Below, piece after piece: positions 206 through 20,209 of a stretch of DNA of 64,000 nt. Source of the stretch: Beverwykella pulmonaria (taxonomy: Eukaryota; Ascomycota; Dothideomycetes; Pleosporales; Melanommataceae); the NCBI GenBank assembly GCA_001599595.1, contig BCHH01000020.1:1-64000 (forward strand), written 5' to 3'. The position numbers and the translations under genes are program-made. The number at the start of each line of letters is the position of its first letter. Within the stretch, counting starts at the first letter, position 1. The notes under the pieces were generated by a model. The model saw nothing but the letters and a program-made list of their open reading frames with translations. It had not been told where the DNA came from and made no database searches.

Positions 206-3200
206 CTACGCATCTTGTACAAGGTCGGCCTCGAGTGTGTTCTCCGTTGTGCTCTTTATACTCTCATTCATCTTTTCTAACAGGAGAGACTGGACCTCTT
301 CATGACAATGTTTCCGAGCAAACCAAACGCAATCTCTTCCGGAGAAATCCTTAGATAGAGGAGAAGCGTTATGCTCCAGAAGGAGTTTGACAAGGCCAGT
401 GTTTTGGCGAGCTGTATCTGTGGCATATGACAGTGGCGTCCGCCCATCTTTGTCAGGCAAGTTCAGGTGTTCCCGGCTTTGCTGCAAAAGTAGTCTTACC
501 ACGGAGTCGTAACCCTGGCTACAGGCGTGAGAGAGCGGAGTTCTACCGGCGTCGTCTATCGAGACAGGTGATGCTCCTTCATCGAGTAGGGCGCGAACAA
601 CTGCCTCCTTCCCTTGTCCTGCTGCGTAAGATAATGCTGTTCGGCCTTCTTTATCACTAGCGTCTCTATCGGCATCTTTGCGGGCTAGTAGCTGCTTGAT
701 AATTCCGAGATGACCCTGTGCGGCAGCCCAAGTGAGAGCATCCTTGCCCCACCAATCTCTTAAGTTGATTGTGAGGTCAGGTCGAGCCATCAGCTGAGTA
801 ACCACCTCGTTATGTCCCTTGCCAGCTGCCCACAACATAGCAGATCCGCTTTCAACTCCTCCAGAATCTGCGGAGACATCATCTCGTGCAAGAAGGAGCT
901 TCGTCACAGCAGCGTGTCCAGCCTTTGCTGCCCGCCAAACAGGCGTTCTACCCTCCTCATCTTCCCTGTCGGCAACTACATCGGGGCAATCAAGTAAGAC
1001 TTCAACTACTTTGTCGTGTCCTTCTCCGGCTGCCCACGATAAAGCTGCTCTTCCATCCGCATCCTGAATGTCGACAAGAATGCCTGGCTGAGCAATCAAC
1101 GTTTTGACAATTTCAACGTGGCCTCCCTTTGCTGCCCATATGATCGCTGTCTGGCGAGAACTGTCCGCATAGTTGATAGAGACATTCGGATTCTCTAACA
1201 GTAGAGCTACGACACCATTGTGACCGTGTGTTGCAGCCAGGATTAAAGGCGTACGCTTGTTGCTGTCAGTCGAATTTGCATCCATACCTCTATGTATAAG
1301 ATCAGAAACGAAGACATCGAGCCCAAAGTATGCTGCCAGGTGAATCCCCTGTATATCACGAGGTCCATCGTGACTGTAACCGGGGTATTTGTATTTTGGA
1401 ATGAAAAGAGACTGAGCGGAGCTCTCGACTTTTCGTCGTTGAATAAGGAATGATATTGCTTGAGATTTAACCTCATGCTGCGTTTTAAGACTGGCATGGA
1501 TGCCCCAGAACTCTGACGCATAGTTAAACAGAGAGAACTTCTGCAGCCGACCTTCGAAAACTTCATCGGTATCACAGAACGAGGAGAAGCAGTTAAATGA
1601 TAGGTAGGTAAGACAGATGTCCGCAAGGTTGCGAGGTCCGTTCTGGAATTTAGTGGGTTTCAGGCGTTCGAAAAACTCTCTTGTAGTGTCATGGACAAAG
1701 CGCACCACATCGCTTTCTTGGTCGATGATAACCAGCCCGGCGCAAGTGGAGACGAGGTCTTCCGCATCTGCAAAGTTGTCTTCGTCCAACTCCGGCTTTC
1801 CGAGCTCGACTGCAAATGCATGGCGAAATTCACCAACTGTGAGCGGTCGCTGAACACATACAACCAATGTGAGCACCTGATTTGCAAGATCCCGCAACCC
1901 AGGCTCTTGTAAATCGATTCTCTTAAACGCTTCATCATATGCACTTTTCAGAGCATCGGAGCCTTGCGGTAGTCGTCGTAATGCGGTCTTTATCGCCTTT
2001 GGGCTTGCTCGACCGATGAGAGACACAAGGTGGAGTCTTGCAAGAAGGAACCTGTTCCTCATTCTATCAGTTCTCTGATTTGGTAGTAAGATCATCTAGA
2101 CAGTGCATACATTCCATTGACGACATCACAGATTTCCTGGACAATAGTGTCCTGTAGAGAGGTATCTCGCTGCACACAGCTTGCGAGACGGAACATATTT
2201 CCCTCGAGGTATTTCCGCACATCGCTTCGCTCGGCACTAATCTCGATGTTGGACACTGCGGAAAACTTCTGTTGTAGTAATGGCACAAACCGGGACGTAA
2301 GCAGGATCTGAAGAGGAACTGCTTCCTGCAATGACTGCAATGCATTCATGAAGAGGTATCGAATACCGTTGTCCTCTGAACATTCGTCAATTGCATCCAC
2401 TATCAGGTACGTCCTGTCGTTATCCTCTAGTTGCTGTTGCAATAGATCAAGAATATCCTCTGCTGTCGGGTTCATTCTGAGGTGAGAATGGCGGACGTAA
2501 GCGTTGACTATGTGATTTGGAAGTCTCTGCTTTCTGTGAACTAGTTGTCTTAGAAAACTTCCCAAAAGATTCAGCAGCGTCTGCTCTGTCTTATTTCGGA
2601 AGTTAAAGTAAATATAAGCAAGCCCAATTCTAAGATCTTGCGAATTGCGTTCGCATCGCTCGTTCCAGATGTGATCGACTACAATTGATGCGATGGTGGT
2701 CTTTCCGGCACCCGGGATACCAGGGCAGAAGAGGATACGAGATGATCCATTGAGCCACTGAAGGAAGGATTCTGACTGCAGAAACCATTGGCCAGTGCCG
2801 AACTGACGCTGAGAGACAATATCACTATGCTGATAGGAGAAGTCAAGCGGTGAGAGCCAATTTAGGATAGCCTGTCTTCCAGGTACTGCGCACGATGTGA
2901 GACAGCCACATTCGTTGGCGAACATGCAACTTACTGTTAGATGAAACTTCAATATCTTTCAGTTTGTCTTCTATTGCCTTTACTGATGTCTCGACTGTTG
3001 AAAGTTGGGTACCCAGCGCTTTTGAAAGACCACTGGTCAAGTTAGAAAATCCTGAGCAAATATATTTGGTAGGGCATAATTTAGCCTCGTCTTACATGCT
3101 ATCTTTTTGAAGGGCTAACGTGATTAGTGATGTTTGCCAGTTGATGCCAGAAAGAAGCTCCTCCAGTTCGCTCTTCGTGAATGGCCAAATAAGACCTTTT

Positions 3201-3847: not shown

Positions 3848-5892
3848 ATGGATCCTAGAGAGCTTGCTATACAATTAGCTATCCACGATTACAATGCGCG
3901 TATTTATACGAGTCAAAGCGCCGCCGCTAAGGCGTACGGCATCCCTCGTTCCACACTACGCGATCGATTGAATGGCGCGACAAATAGCACCACCAGCCAT
4001 CAACACCAGCAGCGGCTGAGCCCTAAACAAGAGGAATTCCTAGTTGAATGGATACTTGAAGAAGACGCTCGAGCCTGCCCTCCCTCACACGCCAGGGCTT
4101 GAGAAATGGCCAATCAAATCTCACGCATGAACGGCGACAAAAATCCTATTGGCTAGCTCTGGCTCTCACACTTCATCCAACAGAATCCGCGTGTTGCATC
4201 TGTGATTGGCAGGAAGATAGAGGCTCAGAGAGCTGAGGTAGCTACACCTAAGCAGGTGCACGCGTTCCTAGAGCTCTTTGAGCGTACTTGACAGAGGCTT
4301 AATATACTAATGGAAGATGTATACAACATGGATGAGACAGGATGCGCCCTAGGAGTATGTACGAACTCTAGAGTCCTTGCTAGTGCATTGAAAAAGAAGG
4401 CTTATATCAAGTCTCTAGAGGATCGCGAGTGGGTGTTAGTAATTGAGTGTATATCGGCGACTGGCAAAAGGCTACGCTGCCTTATTATCTTCAAAGGCCA
4501 ATCTCTACAGACCACGTGGTTCTCGCCTGAATCAGTGCCTGATCTATACTATACAACCTCTAAGAAGGGCTGGACATCAAATGCTATTGGTACTAAGTGG
4601 CTGCGGCATATATTGCGCCGTAGCAAAGTGCTACTTTGCGCGAATATACCACTGGCATGGGTGGAAGGCTTGGATGCATGGTGCAGGGAACAGGTCTTGG
4701 TTTCTCTGTCAGCTGCTTGCTTCGTCATCACTCAACGCGGTATATATATGGGGACCCGAACACGACACCCACACATCTATCGTAACCATCGGACACATCA
4801 ATCGGCAACGACCACATCGCACGATCAATCAACGATACACAAACTGACTCCAAACGAGACCAGGAATGCTTCATCTGTTTTTCATCATTCCTTCATCTTT
4901 TATTTGGTTTGGTAGCTAGATACAACGAAATTGCAAACAGTCTACTGCCAAACCTCCATCTTGATTCTTCTCTCCCGCCGTTTAGTGCATTGCTGCTTCG
5001 GACATCGCATGGCTGCGAGTCGCCCTCCTACCCCCGTGTGATCATTTTGTTATCACACACCCTTTACTCCACCACAATATTCCTTCTAGAAACTGCTCGG
5101 CCAAGGGCTCAGCATATCCTCCTTATCCTGGACGGCCACGGCAGCTATGTTAACATAGAGTTCCAATAGCTCTGCAAACAGAATCAAATTAAGCTTCTCT
5201 ACTTGCCTTTCCACTCATCGCACATCTTACAGCCTCTAGATCTGGCTCCTTTCTTAGTTATTAAGTTAGCCTATCAAAACTAGATTTGAGATCTAGCATC
5301 ACTTGATGATGCTGCACTAGTTAAGAAGCAACAATTTGTTGAATGCTATAGCAAAGCTAGAGATCAAGGCCTTACAGAAAGAGTAATTTGTGCAGGCTGG
5401 CGAGCTACAGGCATCAGCCTATTAAACATAGAGCTAGTAGTAGGCTCCTTACAGGTTTAGCAGAGGCCATCTACTCCTAAGTCTCATAGACAGCCTCTAC
5501 TACTAGTTGATCCGCTTTATAACACGCCTTAGAAACCCCAGGATTTCTACCTTATTTAGCAGAGGCTGCAGCAGTCTGAAAACCTCACGCGCAATACCCG
5601 GCTAGTGCTGCAAAAAGCAGGCAAGGCTCTCTCAGCTGCAAACATGAGGGCAGCTGCCCTGGAGGAGAAGAATCAAAGGTTGGAACATCAACTAGAAGCT
5701 ATTGGCTCTACTAGGTCTCAGAAGCGTATTCAAATTCACCCAAACGAGCGATTTGCCAATGTAGAGAATATCATGGGCGCTATTCAGCAGGCAGCTGCTG
5801 AACAAGCAAAACGTAGCAAAACTACTGATGCAGAGGCTGCAGAAAAGGCTGCAATGGCTGCTGCTGCAACTCTTGAATCTATGTGTAATTAA
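3848..5892 (+). pseudogene. Broken pogo/Fot1 transposase
   Basis: Starts with MDPRELAIQLAIHDYNARIY and a Psq/CENP-B-type helix-turn-helix (AAAKAYGIPRSTLRDRL). A stretch with VYNMDETG (first catalytic Asp) follows at about 4310, then LILDGHGSYV (second Asp) at about 5125 and HSSHILQPLDLAPF at about 5212-5255. The last ORF (5605-5892) matches the coiled C-terminal tail of fungal pogo transposases. Reading between these is stopped at least eight times, mostly by TAG (for example near 4153, 5167, 5281, 5458 and 5532) and by TGA near 4288. The DDE domain is also split by about 480 bp of unrelated sequence between about 4608 and 5088. It cannot encode active transposase. Confidence 0.85.
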
Positions 5893-10341: not shown

Positions 10342-11571
10342 TTAATACCTATAGCATAGGAAGTACGACTGCGTGTTGAGAACATCGGAAACCTGAACGT
10401 CCGGCGCTAAATTGCCCATATCAAGTATATCGGCGACAGAAGCCGAGTTCCTAGAACCATGCATAGCCAGCCCGGCATATTTCATTCTTCGTGTTATATT
10501 ACGACTCTGCCATTTCCACCATAGTCGGTCAAGCTGGGTGTGATGTAGGAAGAAAACTGGATCTGCGTCGATCAATCACGTCAGTTCTACTCTTCTATGT
10601 TTTTATGAAAACAAAAGAGAAGACTTACCCGACGGTGCGGTGAGCAGAGAAAAGTCACCTCGGATGCTGCGCGGTATTGCGAGGTGAGGCCCGTTCTCCA
10701 GCCCAAGGTTGAATGTGTTGTAGTCTTCGACGTTCAATAGACTATCTACGGCCTCCGGATCCAGTTCTCTTGACTGGTTTTCCAGCTCTTCGCCGGTCAA
10801 AAATCCGCGAGACAAGCAATGAGGGTAATATTCCTCATCAAGGTAAGGGACCTCAAATCTCCCGAACGCACCGTCAGTGACACAGTGGCCTTTCACTATT
10901 TCCTCTGCTGGATCATCGGGGTCTCCATTGGACCCGAACCCATGCTCAGCGTCCCAGATGGGTGCTTTGGTGACATCCTTCCAATCGAGCTCCCAATCCC
11001 AGTACCTGCGCCAATCAGCATAGATACATATAGGCCGCGCTTGAAATGGACTCACACAAGATGACCGCCATAATTGCAGTCATTTCGTAGTGCAAGCTCA
11101 TACACATGGATGAAATATCGATGCCATGCGATGAATGGAGCAGCTCCATGGACTACAACATTACGTTAGTGAGCCGCTCTCTTGAGAGGCATTTCAAGTG
11201 ACCTCACCTTTTTCCCCAATGCGACTGTGGACCCACGGAAAGTCATCGTATAACGACTGGTTCAAACCAAGTCGGGAATCTTTCGTCCTTAGGCACTTGA
11301 CTGCGTCGAGGTACTCATGTTTCTGCAACTTGGACAGAGTTCGCCATTCACGTCTCGTGACAACACTGGTGCAAGTGCTGCCCTCACCTCTCGGGACAGC
11401 AGTCCATTTCAGGTAGCCGCATATCGAGACTGCTGCGAGAGCGAGAGCAACGACAGCAACGACGACTCGTCGGAACGCAGAACAGCGGGACTTCTCGGCT
11501 AGTATATCACCACTCTCCTCCCCATCGAGGAGAGTATACCTCGATTTTGAAGCTCGGAGGAGGTGCATCAT
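10342..11571 (-). CDS. Membrane-anchored tyrosinase, UstQ/PhomQ-like
   Basis: Type 3 copper oxidase that oxidises tyrosine-type phenols; tyrosinases accompany UstYa proteins in dikaritin RiPP clusters. Model: exons 11571-11208, 11152-11056, 11005-10629 and 10562-10342, giving 352 aa with all phases consistent. A single transmembrane segment (about 36-53) makes it a type II membrane protein with the catalytic domain in the secretory lumen. CuA ligands appear as H115, H123 and H132 in HGAAPFIAWHRYF; CuB as H261 and H286/H287 in DPVFFLHHTQLDRLW. It lacks the long C-terminal shield of melanin tyrosinases. It is transcribed divergently from the peptide precursor, sharing 847 bp, which suggests co-regulation. 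Confidence 0.88.
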
Positions 11572-12418
11572 TTTTGCGGGCAGAACAAGAAAGTCGTGTA
11601 TCGTTAAGTTTGGCAGGCAACGCCAGCGTCTTGTGTTGCGAGCACTTGTTTTCCTGATGGACGCTCACCCGAGGCTTCCCAGTGTCAGAAAAGAAGGAAT
11701 TTGGTACCACATGAAGAGTTCAGCTGCAGATATGAGACAGACCGTTCGAGCGGGTGTTCATTGGCGCAATTTACGTCCTAGTACCTGCCCTTACTTCGGG
11801 AGAGGCGTTTGATGCGGTGTAGCATATTACATGTCCATGTCAAGACCAATAGACGTTCAGACCGCACATATTTCTGAGCGTTTCCCGCTGTACAAACGAC
11901 TGCGTCTCATCATCTGGTATGAAGGGTACCAATCGGGATATATGCATGCCAATGCAGTTTCACACTTCAGAAGGCAGATTCGGCGCCGGTCTCCGAAGGA
12001 ACCAGTTCTTGTTTCAAGTCGCATCCCGATCAATATTTAGCGAACATTAATTGCATGGAGTCAATATTCTGAAGGAATATGCAAGGTTGAAATTATCACC
12101 TGTCTCAGTTCCAGCGACAATGGTATATCATAGGAAAGTCCGTGCTTTCGGCGACATATTTGTACCTCTCTAGTATGGTCAGATGTTGGATTGAAGATAA
12201 AATATATGATATTGTCTATGGAGTACCTCGCGATACGTAGGTGCCCCAGATAGAGAACAAGCTATGACCATATTCACGCAATATATGTATATAGTCCGAC
12301 ATCAGAAGCACTCGACATCTCCACCGCGCGGTTTAACTTTTCCACCAGCCATCTGTACAGCCGTGATATTCCCTCGACAACTGCTCACAGGCAATACTCC
12401 ACCTACCATCGACTCAAT
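11572..12418. promoter_or_regulatory. Divergent promoter region, tyrosinase / peptide precursor
   Basis: 847 bp between two divergent starts. TATA-rich sequence (ATATATGTATATAG) lies at about 12281-12294, some 125-140 bp before the precursor ATG. No gene is visible inside. Shared control of both genes is inferred from the layout only. Confidence 0.45.
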
Positions 12419-12810
12419 ATGAAAATCTCGACAATCTTGTTCCTCGGGCTCGTTGGACACACTGTTGCCTCACCCCTCAGTAAGTTGACCCGAAAACGCC
12501 AAAACATATCCCTTACACCACTACAGATCCTTCGCCTCATATCCCTTATACCATCCAGCAATTCGATGGCATGAAGCGCGAAGCCATGGCCAAGGACGCC
12601 AAAGCAGACTACCGACGCGAAGCCTTTCCAAAAGAAGTCAAAGCCGACTACAGACGTGAGGCTCTACCGAAAGACGTGAAAGCCGACTATCGTAGGGACG
12701 CTCTTGCGAAGGACACTAAAGCGGATTATCGACGTGAGGCTATGGCCAAGGATGTAAAGGCAGACTACCGCCGCGATGCAGCTCCTAAAGATGTTACAGC
12801 TGACTACTGA
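12419..12810 (+). CDS. Secreted Kex2-processed repeat precursor, candidate dikaritin-type RiPP precursor
   Basis: Two exons (12419-12479 and 12527-12810, 47-bp intron with CTTAC branch site) encode 114 aa. A signal peptide (MKISTILFLGLVGHTVAS) leads to a short leader and then KR. Six tandem 13-residue repeats follow (39 bp each, from 12580): core peptides such as EAMAKDAKADY, EAFPKEVKADY and DALAKDTKADY, separated by RR; the sixth ends at the stop without RR. KR/RR are Kex2 cleavage sites. Every unit begins EA or DA, the X-Ala pattern trimmed by Ste13-type dipeptidyl aminopeptidases. Each core keeps one Tyr at its C-end (ADY). Such precursors feed UstYa oxidases and tyrosinase in ustiloxin/phomopsin-type pathways, and both enzymes flank it here. 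A pheromone or other repeat peptide is the alternative. Product unknown. Confidence 0.85.
12580..12807 (+). repeat. Six 39-bp tandem repeats encoding the core peptides
   Basis: Units start at 12580, 12619, 12658, 12697, 12736 and 12775; the last is 33 bp. Synonymous positions differ widely between units while the KxxKADYRR pattern is kept (last unit KDVTADY). This points to selection on the peptide rather than recent DNA duplication. Confidence 0.9.
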
Positions 12811-13759
12811 GTCGGCTGCAAATAATCGTGTTTGTGCAAAGGAGCACATTTCCCTGTGCTTACCTTCCAGCGGTAACGAACGTGGGTCTAGGGGCGACTG
12901 AGATTGACCATTTCTGTTTATTAGCACTAGGATAACCTTGCGCAAATTAAAGTTCAATTCCTTGCTTGTGCGCCGCGCAATGAGGTGGTGTAACGTCCGG
13001 GTAATATGTATCCGAATGCTGATCAGTGCTTCGGTAGCTGCCGTAGAGCCATACATTCGGGATATACGGTAGCCTCCGTACGTACAAATAGAAGCCTGTT
13101 TATGGATCCGTAGGCATGTCACCTATACTAGCTACCGTATGAACTGATAGTGTAACTTACCTGCATAGCTTCGAGAAATCCTACGGATGCACGATGTGCG
13201 TACGGATTTTCACGCTGGTATGTGATCCTGGCCTTTACAGTGGGATCAAGGATGGATACGTTAGTGAAAGTTTACGTATATGGGTGCGACACAGTGGAAC
13301 CTTACATGGAGTTGTGCCCTATATCAGTCGGTCTTTTCCATACTGTGGGCTCCGGGTCATATGCGCTCGGGATAGGGAAGGGGGACAAGTGAAGCAGACG
13401 CATGAATACGGCCCATTCCGTTTGGAATTACATGCACACGCATTCCTTCTAAGCAAGGCGAACCGTCGATGCAGCAAAATAAAATTGCATTTTAGCCGTA
13501 CCGCTTATGGGAGGCATATAAGATGGGGGGAGGGGTGGAAAGGCCCGTACCCATGACGCCGCAGTTTCTGACCCAAACGCCTTGACAAGGATGTTCTAAT
13601 GTGACTCTCGAGGAAACATTGCTGGGTTGAATTCAGCTCTTGATGTTTCCAAGTACAGCCTTCACGCCTCCCCAGATTCGAAAATTGCGCCACTGCTAAC
13701 TTTCTCCCTTACGTTTGTCGCATCCAGTATTGAAGTTCAACATCTTCACCATCGTCGAC
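12811..13759. other. Intergenic, precursor to UstYa-like gene
   Basis: About 950 bp. It holds several short CGGTAGC/GCTACCG words in both orientations between about 13036 and 13140. A 120-codon plus ORF at 13194-13556 has no recognisable features. The last part presumably contains the promoter of the UstYa-like gene. Confidence 0.45.
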
Positions 13760-14711
13760 ATGGACCAGGACAAAGCTGCTGAGGACCATCTGTTGTCATC
13801 AATAGAGGATGAAAAACCCGAAGTCAGTCCTGAGCTCAGGGTTGCACGAAGGCCAGGCAGTCGTTCACCTTCATTGCACTCATCACTATTCTTTCTCGGC
13901 TTCGTTTCTGTGGTACTCAACATATACCTGCTCACCACCATGCACATTTCACGAAATGAAGCATTGTTTAGTAGGTTTCCTTGGTCAACACTCATGGGAC
14001 CTTCCGCGTATAGTAGGTGCAAGAAACTCTACTGCGACTACGCAAGCTGAAAAAGGACATAGCTGGATTAAGCCTCGATACACCAATGGTTTACCACCAC
14101 CAATCCGACTACTGGAGTGAGAATCAGACGCTAGCTGATAAGCTCTGGGAAGACATTGATACAGACCCAATGGTAGTCGCCCTCACCGACGACTTTGCTG
14201 ACACCCACGACCTACCTCGTTCTGATCGGTTCCCGTGGGACGAGGGAAAGGGTCGTTATTTTGTCAAAGTCTTCCATCAGCTGCATTGCCTTGTGAGTAA
14301 CTATGAATGTCACCCCTGCCATTTCGTCTGATTGTTCCATAGAAGTTCATACGAAAAGCATTTGTAGATTTCGAGCGTGGAAGAGTTCCTGTTCTAAACC
14401 CTCGTCACGTCCACCACTGCCTGGCTAGCCTGCGGCAAGACATCATATGTATCGCAGATGACACTCCGATGCCGACGGGGGAAGAAGCTCGTTCAATCGG
14501 TGATGGGCAGCTGCGCATGTGTCGAAACTACTCTAAACTGATCCAATGGATATATGCACCGGAAAGGCATGCTTGTCATCGCGCGTTGGATGACTACCGG
14601 TCCATCACGCATTCGATCGAGAGGTATGCGTTTTGTCCAAATGAATCACCATACTACCCAGTCATGAAGAAGTGGTTCGAGAAGAATGGGCATGTTGATC
14701 CTTGGGCTTAG
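13760..14711 (+). CDS. UstYa family (DUF3328) oxidase
   Basis: UstYa/UstYb-type proteins catalyse oxidative cyclisation of RiPP core peptides, typically with two HxxHC motifs. Preferred model: exons 13760-14007, 14073-14292 and 14343-14711, 278 aa. A single transmembrane segment lies at about 41-60. HQLHC is at 151-155 and HVHHC at 178-182, so both motifs are intact, and FPWDEGKGRYFVKV precedes the first as in the family. The second intron (14293-14342, GTGAGT..CATAG) is clear. The first is less certain: an intron at 13971-14023 also keeps frame and would alter about 20 residues before LDTPMVY. It lies 950 bp downstream of the precursor on the same strand, so the pair probably works as enzyme and substrate in the secretory pathway. 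Confidence 0.87.
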
Positions 14712-17755: not shown

Positions 17756-19815
17756 ATGAGCGACACAGGCCCCACTGCGAAAGTTTATGACTATATTGTT
17801 TGCGGGTAAGTATTCTCCTTCCATTTGTTAGCATAAGCTAACCGCGAGTACGCCAGCGGAGGCACAGCAGGATGCGTTCTTGCCAGCCGACTGGCTGAGA
17901 ATCCAGGCGTTTCGGTCCTGATCATTGAAGCCGGGCGCCCAAACGATGCCATCCCCGCATCCGCCATTCCAGCCGCGTGAGTGAGAGAGACATAGTAAGA
18001 GGAATGTAGAGATGCTCATGTCATCTTCAGCGTATCACAAATACTTGGCACAGAAGCGGACTGGAACATCCAGAGCGAGCCATGTCCCGAGCTGAATGGC
18101 CGGAAGTTGCATCTCGGGCGAGGAAAGTGTGTTGGTAATGTCTGGGCATAGGAAACATGGTAGCTGACCCAAAGCGTAGATTTCTCGGCGGTAGCAGCGG
18201 TTGTAATGGAACTCTCTGCATTCGCGGTGTTCCACAAGACTACGACGACTGGGGCTTGGAGGGCTGGACTGGCGCTGACATGTGGAAGTACATGAATAGG
18301 GTAAGTTCAAGAGGTCATGGTGATGGAGGGTTGATACATTTGATAACACGACTTCAGGTCGAAATGTTCCGTAACAAAGAATGGTTCAAGGCCGATGCGG
18401 AAACACATGGCACTGCGGGACCTCTCATCACCACCCCGCATGATCCAGCTCCAATCTCCAGCCTCGTCCTCAAGTCAATGCAGTCCAAAGGGCTGCCGCT
18501 AGAACAGGACATGTTTACCACGGGAATGACAGCACAAGGCTGTGGGCATGCCGTCCGAAGTGTCTACCAAGGCGTTCGAACGACATCGGTTGACTATCTA
18601 GGGAATGTGAAGGGCTATTCAAACATCAAGATAATGACGGACCAATACGTAAACACTGTGATCCTAGAAACGGGAAGTGATGGGTCCATCCGAGCGGATG
18701 GCGTAAGTGTTCAAGACAAAAGTGGCAACGCCACCACCATCAAGGCCGAGAAAGAAGTAATTGTCACCGCGGGCGCGTACGGTAGTCCTGCCATACTTCT
18801 TCGATCCGGCATTGGCCCTAAGGAAGAGCTGAACAAGCTGGGCATTGAGTCGAAAGTGAATCTTCCAGGTGTTGGAAAGAATCTCATGGACCACATGGTA
18901 AGCTTCTCTCGATTGCAAACTTTTGACGCTCAAACGCGGCTAATCAGTCCATCATGCAGGTAATGCTCAGCTTTTACGAGGTCTCCAAGCCAAATGTCAC
19001 GAATGATCACCTGATCTGGCATACCGGAGCGAAGGAAAAGGCGATGGAACAATACAAGGCCTCCCGCACTGGTTTTTTCTCACAATTTCCTTTCGGTGTC
19101 TTCGCCTTCTCTCGTCTTGACGACCGGCTTAAAGATAGCGAGGAATGGCAGAAGGCCTTACGTGTCAATGGTCGTGATCCCATGGGCACGCTCGACAATC
19201 AGCCACACGTAGAATTCTGGAATACCGAGTGCTACAGCCCCAAGTACATGTTCAAGGACTTTCCTCCTGACGGTCGGTATGCCTTCGCCATGGCGACAAC
19301 GTTCTTCTCCCCAAGATCGCGTGGAGAGGTATCACTAGCATCTCGCGACCCAACAGCGAATCCGATAGTCCAGCACAACTTCTTGAGTGATCCGCTCGAT
19401 AAGCTTGTCTTCAGCGAGGGATGCAGGTTCGCAAACGAGATCGCTATACAGGGATCTGGAACTAAAGACATTATTGTTGATTCGTGGCCAGCGGCCCATG
19501 GTCACGCGAAATTCACGACTAGAGAAGAGTGGCAAGAGGCGATTCGCCAACGTGCTGATACCTGTAAGCCGGATTTCCCATTTCCGTTATTGAAAATTTA
19601 TCTGACATTCTTCAGGTTACCACCCGGGCGGGTCGTGTAAGATGGGAAATGACGACGAAAGCAGTACCGTGGTGGATGCGAAGCTACGTGTTAGAGGCGT
19701 GGCTGGTTTACGGGTTGCCGATGCGAGTATTATGCCAACGTTGCCTAGTGGGCATCCGCAGATGGCGGTCTTTGCGATTGGAGAAAAGGCGGCAGACTTA
19801 ATACTAAACAAGTAA
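17756..19815 (+). CDS. GMC-family FAD oxidoreductase (choline dehydrogenase-like)
   Basis: FAD-dependent alcohol oxidase or dehydrogenase; substrate unknown. Exons 17756-17805, 17857-17976, 18031-18126, 18180-18300, 18358-18897, 18960-19563 and 19616-19815 give 576 aa. The dinucleotide-binding motif [13 protein letters not shown] is at about 17-30 with IIEAG as the end of the second strand. [13 protein letters not shown] (GMC signature) is at about 88-100; it forms only if the third intron uses the GTGTGT donor at 18127. The catalytic pair is H513 ([10 protein letters not shown]) and H557 ([20 protein letters not shown]). No signal peptide. It sits 3 kb from the UstYa-like gene and may be a tailoring enzyme of that cluster or an unrelated gene. 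Confidence 0.9.
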
Positions 19816-19879
19816 TGTTCTTAAGCAGAGTCTTTACTTTACGAGCAGGGAGTGCAACCATTTTACTAGGTTTGGTTGC

Positions 19880-20100
19880 CTTTGTGCTGCCGCCAAATTG
19901 TATTTAGATAGGCTCCCTGTCACTTCTTGTCCTTTGGCGGCGTCTCTCTATGCCATGTCGGCGTATGGCTTACCCGGTGTGGATCGCGCTATGCAGCTCC
20001 TCAAAGACGAGATGGAGATGAACATGCGACTGATCAGTGCCTCTAGTATTGTAGATTTGAATCCTACTCTGGTCGACACGAGAGATCATTCGTTTGTACT
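19880..20100 (+). pseudogene. Relic of an FMN alpha-hydroxy-acid (L-lactate) dehydrogenase, C-terminal fragment
   Basis: The reading frame here contains SLYAMSAYGLPGVDRAMQLL and then KDEMEMNMRLISASSIVDLN and PTLVDTR. This closely resembles the C-terminal end of FMN-dependent lactate dehydrogenase/glycolate oxidase proteins, where a conserved Arg-Pro-Phe stretch precedes the YA.SAYG motif; that stretch is missing or scrambled. No upstream catalytic domain is present, so this is a fragment. Confidence 0.65.
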
Positions 20101-20209
20101 TAGCGTTGGACTTTGTGCCTATCAAATACATTCGTGTTTCCTACCTAACCATTTAGGTGTGCATCAAGACATAGGAGACGTATTTTCGTAGATATCACGG
20201 TTACGCAAG

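Follow-up and report, generated by a model that had tools for sequence, protein, structure and literature searches.

Ustiloxin and phomopsin are fungal peptides whose gene clusters combine a precursor with a signal-like N-terminus and Kex2 repeats, a UstYa-family oxidase, and a tyrosinase-fold protein. In the ustiloxin pathway, ustQ, ustYa, and ustYb are required for the first ring intermediate, and expressing them yielded it (as described in PMC6514808). Here we describe a similar locus in Beverwykella pulmonaria. Within the window that we analyzed (64,000 nucleotides, positions 1 to 64,000 of contig BCHH01000020.1), three genes at 10342..14711 likely form a compact, dikaritin-like cluster for a ribosomally synthesized and post-translationally modified peptide (RiPP). 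The cluster would make tyrosine-modified, presumably cyclic, peptides ending in KADY.

Other described systems share some of these features. Asperipin-2a also has a small cluster with a repeat precursor, a single UstYa homologue, and tyrosine chemistry, but its four genes are those for the precursor, the UstYa homologue, a transporter, and a reductase, with no tyrosinase in that account (PMC6514808). (aprY is essential for asperipin, according to the same source.) Victorin, by its description in PMC9233826, has a multicore precursor and a ring from a C-terminal aromatic residue (phenylalanine there, tyrosine here) to an internal residue. Similarly, the epichloecyclins are described as having a multicore Kex2 precursor, a tyrosine-based ring, and a lysine in the core (PMC6514808). 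In clan R1 of the lichen RiPP clusters (Parmeliaceae), a tyrosinase lies beside UstY-type genes, and by the authors' account no conserved repeat precursor was found (PMC12048977). (Two relatives of our tyrosinase, P0010 and P0013, are from Letharia and Usnea, among the matches listed; this does not imply that they are clan R1 genes.)

Because fungal loci that combine a Kex2-processed repeat protein (KEP) with a DUF3328 gene are common (one survey counted 1758 among its 7878 KEPs, as given in PMC7329392), the class is already known. What looks new, as far as the sequence can tell, is a KADY core with pheromone-type processing signals beside a cyclizing pair of enzymes. We found no report of a fungal peptide with a KADY-type core among the titles listed from the open-licence literature, though the supplementary KEP tables of earlier surveys may already include this precursor.

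The gene cluster

A first-pass annotation, made from the sequence alone, had placed three genes at this locus, and all three are present. (All of the gene models were predicted from splice-site logic.) The precursor gene (12419..12810, + strand, 114 amino acids; exons 12419-12479 and 12527-12810, intron 12480-12526, stop codon 12808-12810) sits between the two enzyme genes. The gene for the tyrosinase-fold protein lies upstream of it and is read from the minus strand (10342..11571, 352 amino acids; exons 11571-11208, 11152-11056, 11005-10629, and 10562-10342). Downstream, on the plus strand, is the UstYa/DUF3328 gene (13760..14711, 282 amino acids; exons 13760-13970, 14024-14292, and 14343-14711). 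The tyrosinase and precursor genes are divergent and lie about 850 bp apart, and the region between these gene models (11572..12418) could possibly control both of them.

Searches with hidden Markov models, which the first-pass annotation had suggested, matched both enzymes to the expected families. The tyrosinase-fold protein matches PF00264 (E = 1.6e-32) and the UstYa protein matches PF11807 (E = 1.3e-20, 74.6 bits, with a cut-off of 25). As had been claimed, the UstYa protein has two intact HxxHC motifs, HQLHC (14275..14289, + strand) and HVHHC (14406..14420, + strand). Together with one membrane helix, which we identified by inspection, they fit the family's pattern of HxxHC(x)nHxxHC plus a single helix. 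In a relative (P0124), there is a helix at residues 40-75 of an otherwise weak structural model (predicted local distance difference test score of 55.5, predicted template modeling score of 0.32). A profile search identified no relatives of the UstYa protein among PDB sequences, and of 119 stretches from viral contigs that fitted a search pattern, none coded for a relative. Another DUF3328 protein, CctR, is described as a copper enzyme (PMC12435403).

A UstYa-family gene and a tyrosinase alongside the precursor are what is expected of a dikaritin cluster. The core, in contrast, ends in KADY, with tyrosine as the last residue, instead of having the YxIx motif of ustiloxin and phomopsin: across 18 units from four precursors, 17 end in ADY and one ends in ANY. 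We support the original assignment to a UstYa/tyrosinase/Kex2-repeat RiPP cluster, but not strict membership in the YxIx dikaritins. Other differences from ustiloxin and phomopsin are that we see one UstYa protein rather than two or five (the numbers given in PMC7329392), that Ste13 dipeptides are present here, and that a peptidase, a methyltransferase, and a flavin-dependent monooxygenase were not recognized among the open reading frames that we scanned.

The precursor and its repeats

The precursor has a signal-peptide-like N-terminus (residues 1-18, 12419..12472, + strand, by inspection) and six 39-bp repeats (12574..12807, + strand), each of the form [KR/RR]-[E/D]A-X[A/P]-K[DE]x[K/T]ADY. 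This bears out the description of a secreted-type precursor with six cores between KR or RR sites, and each unit has 13 residues. The first two units are KR-EA-MA-KDAKADY and RR-EA-FP-KEVKADY; there is one KR site, followed by five RR sites, and the last core runs up to the stop codon. The protein fits the definition of a KEP (at least three similar repeats split by KR, RR, or KK), with six repeats and with secretion judged by inspection. Predicted core 1, KDAKADY, is at 12592..12612 (+ strand), with its N-terminal edge placed from the XA/XP dipeptides, and predicted cores 2-6 are at 12631-12651, 12670-12690, 12709-12729, 12748-12768, and 12787-12807 (+ strand).

The string KADY occurs five times in the precursor. 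Among 20,000 shuffles of its residues, none had any four-residue string five times, and four had one that occurred four times. The units have diverged in their DNA (tandem-repeat software links just 2.3 copies), and the alanine, aspartate, and tyrosine codons of the six units show 26 synonymous and no nonsynonymous pair differences. We did not find a second copy of the precursor in the B. pulmonaria genome.

In the protein database, the precursor's matches with E ≤ 10 include P0001 (E = 1.1e-6) and P0002 (E = 3.3e-6); a third, P0003 (E = 5.3), is not significant by itself, yet it contains the motif four times. The KADY-RR end is retained in homologues from Phaeosphaeriaceae sp. PMI808 and from metagenome data, and ADY precedes RR at five of five RR sites in P0002 and at four of five in P0003. 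To compare cores, we took as units the 18 places where A[DN]Y is followed by RR, RQ, or W or stands at the end, a choice that fixes the alanine and the tyrosine. In the columns that were free to vary, 17 units have the aspartate and 16 have the lysine; counting back from the end, 17 have an acidic residue at the sixth position and 16 have V, M, I, or F at the fifth. The spacers between the cores are not conserved and differ in length and sequence. The long core of the first-pass annotation thus shrinks to roughly [DE]xKADY. A lysine in the core, which had been seen as a departure from known pathways, has a precedent, as epichloecyclins are described as having a methylated lysine (PMC6514808).

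Fungal surface proteins can also carry short tandem repeats (as is generally known), and the repeat protein could be a structural protein of the wall or surface that has nothing to do with a small product. We think this very improbable: what the homologues share is chiefly the six-residue stretch that precedes the cleavage site, with variable spacers in between, and no Pfam family matched the repeat protein above the cut-off. (DUF2527, at 18.3 bits with a cut-off of 25, was rejected.)

Pheromone-type processing signals

After each of its six dibasic sites, the precursor has [E/D]A and then MA, FP, LP, LA, MA, or AP, which makes two dipeptides of the Ste13 type at every site. The second dipeptide varies in identity yet retains A or P. 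Such double XA/XP dipeptides follow 22 of the 1375 other dibasic sites in the six reading frames of the window, as compared to six of six in the precursor, but because the units are copies of each other, these are not six independent events. Judging from these signals, the mature product in B. pulmonaria is probably a set of K[DE]x[K/T]ADY heptapeptides.

Ascomycete alpha-pheromone precursors likewise have KR or RR followed by EA or DA and X-P dipeptides, and the XA/XP dipeptides that identify them after Kex2 sites are found at all six sites here. According to a survey of 250 fungal secretomes (PMC6339444), the Ste13 signature in Ascomycota is generally reserved for alpha pheromones, and the precursors of cyclic tetrapeptides and epichloecyclins do not have it. 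(In this, our precursor differs from those of the epichloecyclins.) Given these EA/DA and XA/XP dipeptides, the product might be a linear, secreted, pheromone-like signal that is processed by Kex2 and Ste13, while the UstYa protein and the tyrosinase act elsewhere or merely hydroxylate the tyrosine. We consider this unlikely. The precursor is flanked by the UstYa and tyrosinase genes, and in PMI808 all three are on contigs of one size (see below). Furthermore, the genome has a classical alpha-pheromone gene elsewhere, a Cys-type precursor on another contig (L042, G000:C4:2506957-2507271) with five copies of HC[RK]YPGQPCSK and with EA/EP dipeptides.

The repeat protein itself, next to a DUF3328 gene, lacks the pheromone cores PYG[LM]P[IV]G and C..PGQ.C (it has no YPGQ or PYG), so we rejected it as an alpha pheromone. 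Assignment to a pheromone family was something that the first-pass annotation had thought could undo its reading; instead, the pheromone is encoded by a separate gene. Across the genome, C..PGQ.C had 14 matches (control, 6), and five of these, in tandem on C4, are the pheromone gene. PYG[LM]P[IV]G had no matches in the genome, and a looser pheromone pattern had 309, which is below the backwards control (465).

Conservation of the three genes

We identified 454 relatives of the tyrosinase (120 of them listed) and 35 relatives of the UstYa protein. The genes do seem to travel as a unit, as the first-pass annotation had expected if it was correct. In PMI808, the longest contig is 273,389 bp for the matches to the precursor, the tyrosinase, and the UstYa protein alike. 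Apparently, then, B. pulmonaria is not the only fungus to carry the three-gene set. The tyrosinase and UstYa genes pair more broadly: for six of the 11 best UstYa matches, the longest contig has exactly the length recorded for a tyrosinase match in the top 17. The paired species are Phaeosphaeriaceae sp. PMI808, Delitschia, Westerdykella, Byssothecium, Bathelium, and Bogoriella, or six of the seven UstYa matches with a species name. The divergence matrices for the two proteins are correlated (r = 0.87; 13 of 5040 permutations were as high), and part of this is due to the close pair of Bogoriella and Bathelium.

As the precursor was found in just one of these six species, the tyrosinase and UstYa pair might serve another product, with the repeat gene as a chance neighbor. 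Also, near a second such pair in this genome (L039), we recognized no repeat protein within 6 kb. But the precursor gene is positioned between the two enzyme genes, the three genes in PMI808 are on contigs of one size, and short precursors may change so quickly that our search misses them. UstYa-type genes are also frequent neighbors of KEPs (for 22% of them, according to PMC7329392). A chance neighbor is therefore improbable.

The tyrosinase and its copper site

The tyrosinase was thought to have its copper ligands. The fold and the membrane anchor (one N-terminal hydrophobic segment, by inspection) are as claimed, but only five of the six ligands are present. HA1-HA3 (H115, H123, and H132), HB1 (H261), and HB3 (H287) are kept, while HB2 is replaced by Pro265, which aligns to His288 of the catechol oxidase from Aspergillus oryzae (using the list of copper ligands in PMC5929527). 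This is not the canonical type-3 copper site, which has six histidines, three for each copper. Across the 120 listed relatives, the HB2 position is never histidine (104 have P, 11 S, 2 N, 2 R, and 1 Q). The other ligands are present in most of them (116 for HA1, 116 for HA2, 120 for HA3, 119 for HB1, and 114 for HB3), and there is a conserved extra histidine, His216 (in HCLSR). Seven ordinary tyrosinases in the same genome keep HisB2. The family without HisB2 looks new, going by its sequences: we found no report of one among the titles and the beginnings of abstracts listed from the open-licence literature. (A PDB search with just the long central exon of this gene gave a single irrelevant match.) The tyrosinase at L039 (G000:C3:4547200-4553200), which is also linked to UstYa, has H-x3-P and HCLSRGF as well.

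A proposed pathway

A RiPP pathway is by far the best explanation for this locus, given which genes it has, how they are conserved, and what is known about the chemistry of UstYa proteins. As suggested by its N-terminus, the precursor would enter the secretory pathway. Kex2 would cut after the KR and RR sites, and the basic pair would be trimmed off in the manner of Kex1. A peptidase of the Ste13 type would then strip two X-Ala/X-Pro dipeptides, and K[DE]x[K/T]ADY heptapeptides would be left. Next, the tyrosinase-fold protein and the UstYa protein, which is membrane-anchored and by its family a copper oxidase, would together oxidize the C-terminal tyrosine. Its side chain would most likely be joined to the alanine or lysine two or three positions upstream, giving a small ring, and the peptide would be secreted. 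It may have a role in signaling or defense.

More tentatively, the product could be a cyclized peptide hormone. An alpha-factor-type precursor would have been captured by the UstYa/tyrosinase pair and would yield a ring-closed KADY heptapeptide ending in tyrosine; perhaps His216 replaces the partner's lost CuB histidine, in a copper site for linking peptides rather than for oxidizing phenols. We would not bet on this version.

Several observations weigh against a RiPP pathway at this locus. First, with HB2 missing, ordinary tyrosinase chemistry is doubtful. Second, no more than three matches to the precursor reach E ≤ 10, and these include P0003, with its E of 5.3. Third, the metagenomic homologues P0002 and P0003 have no Ste13 dipeptides, and P0001 has them before one of its two cores, so the edge of the heptapeptide may be local to B. 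pulmonaria. Fourth, co-location was deduced from contigs of identical size rather than by reading the contigs, and the pairing analysis compared the best 11 of 35 UstYa matches to the best 17 tyrosinase matches, with the remaining 24 UstYa matches outside of it; five of the 11 were unpaired, four of these on contigs of under 5 kb. Fifth, among the 33 non-cluster open reading frames that were scanned (of 87 listed), we recognized no peptidase, methyltransferase, transporter, or regulator beside the cluster, including no match to an S41 peptidase or a zinc-finger regulator. Finally, intron 1 of the UstYa gene has a weak acceptor (AAG), which makes residues 70-80 or so of the protein uncertain.

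The locus offers a candidate precursor for a tyrosinase and UstYa pair that we see in six named species, a type of pair that lacked a conserved repeat precursor in the lichen survey, as reported in PMC12048977. It would also be a case of Ste13-type signals, which are generally linked to linear pheromones, beside a cyclizing pair of enzymes. The missing HisB2 is a concrete handle on the real role of the tyrosinase partner in UstYa pathways, and a cluster of just three genes could readily be reconstructed in a laboratory host.

Neighboring genes and other UstYa loci

The neighbors of the cluster include a fungal-rhodopsin-type membrane protein as well as reading frames for a GMC oxidoreductase and then a match to FMN-dehydrogenase (18139-20188, + strand, 3.4-5.5 kb past the UstYa gene); these show no sign of belonging to the cluster. 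A match to the DDE_1 endonuclease (4292-4912, + strand), about 5.4 kb from the cluster, is probably a transposon remnant. At 209-2958 (minus strand), a frame for a NACHT/nephrocystin-type NTPase is followed by a long ankyrin-repeat frame, which is reminiscent of fungal NLR-like proteins.

Across the genome, we scanned 22 UstYa loci, counting the window and L039 along with 20 regions that were fetched (nine further loci, by our own grouping, are outside this count), and three of them have a Kex2-repeat protein. Besides the cluster in the window, these are L027 (1943-2512, minus strand; G000:C3 near 345 kb), whose protein has a signal-like start and 14 units ending in AYPESY-KR, and L023 (6417-6791, + strand; G000:C17 near 318 kb), whose protein has five units with EDIVYPDTGLYAE. 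Both of these proteins are encoded beside UstYa genes.

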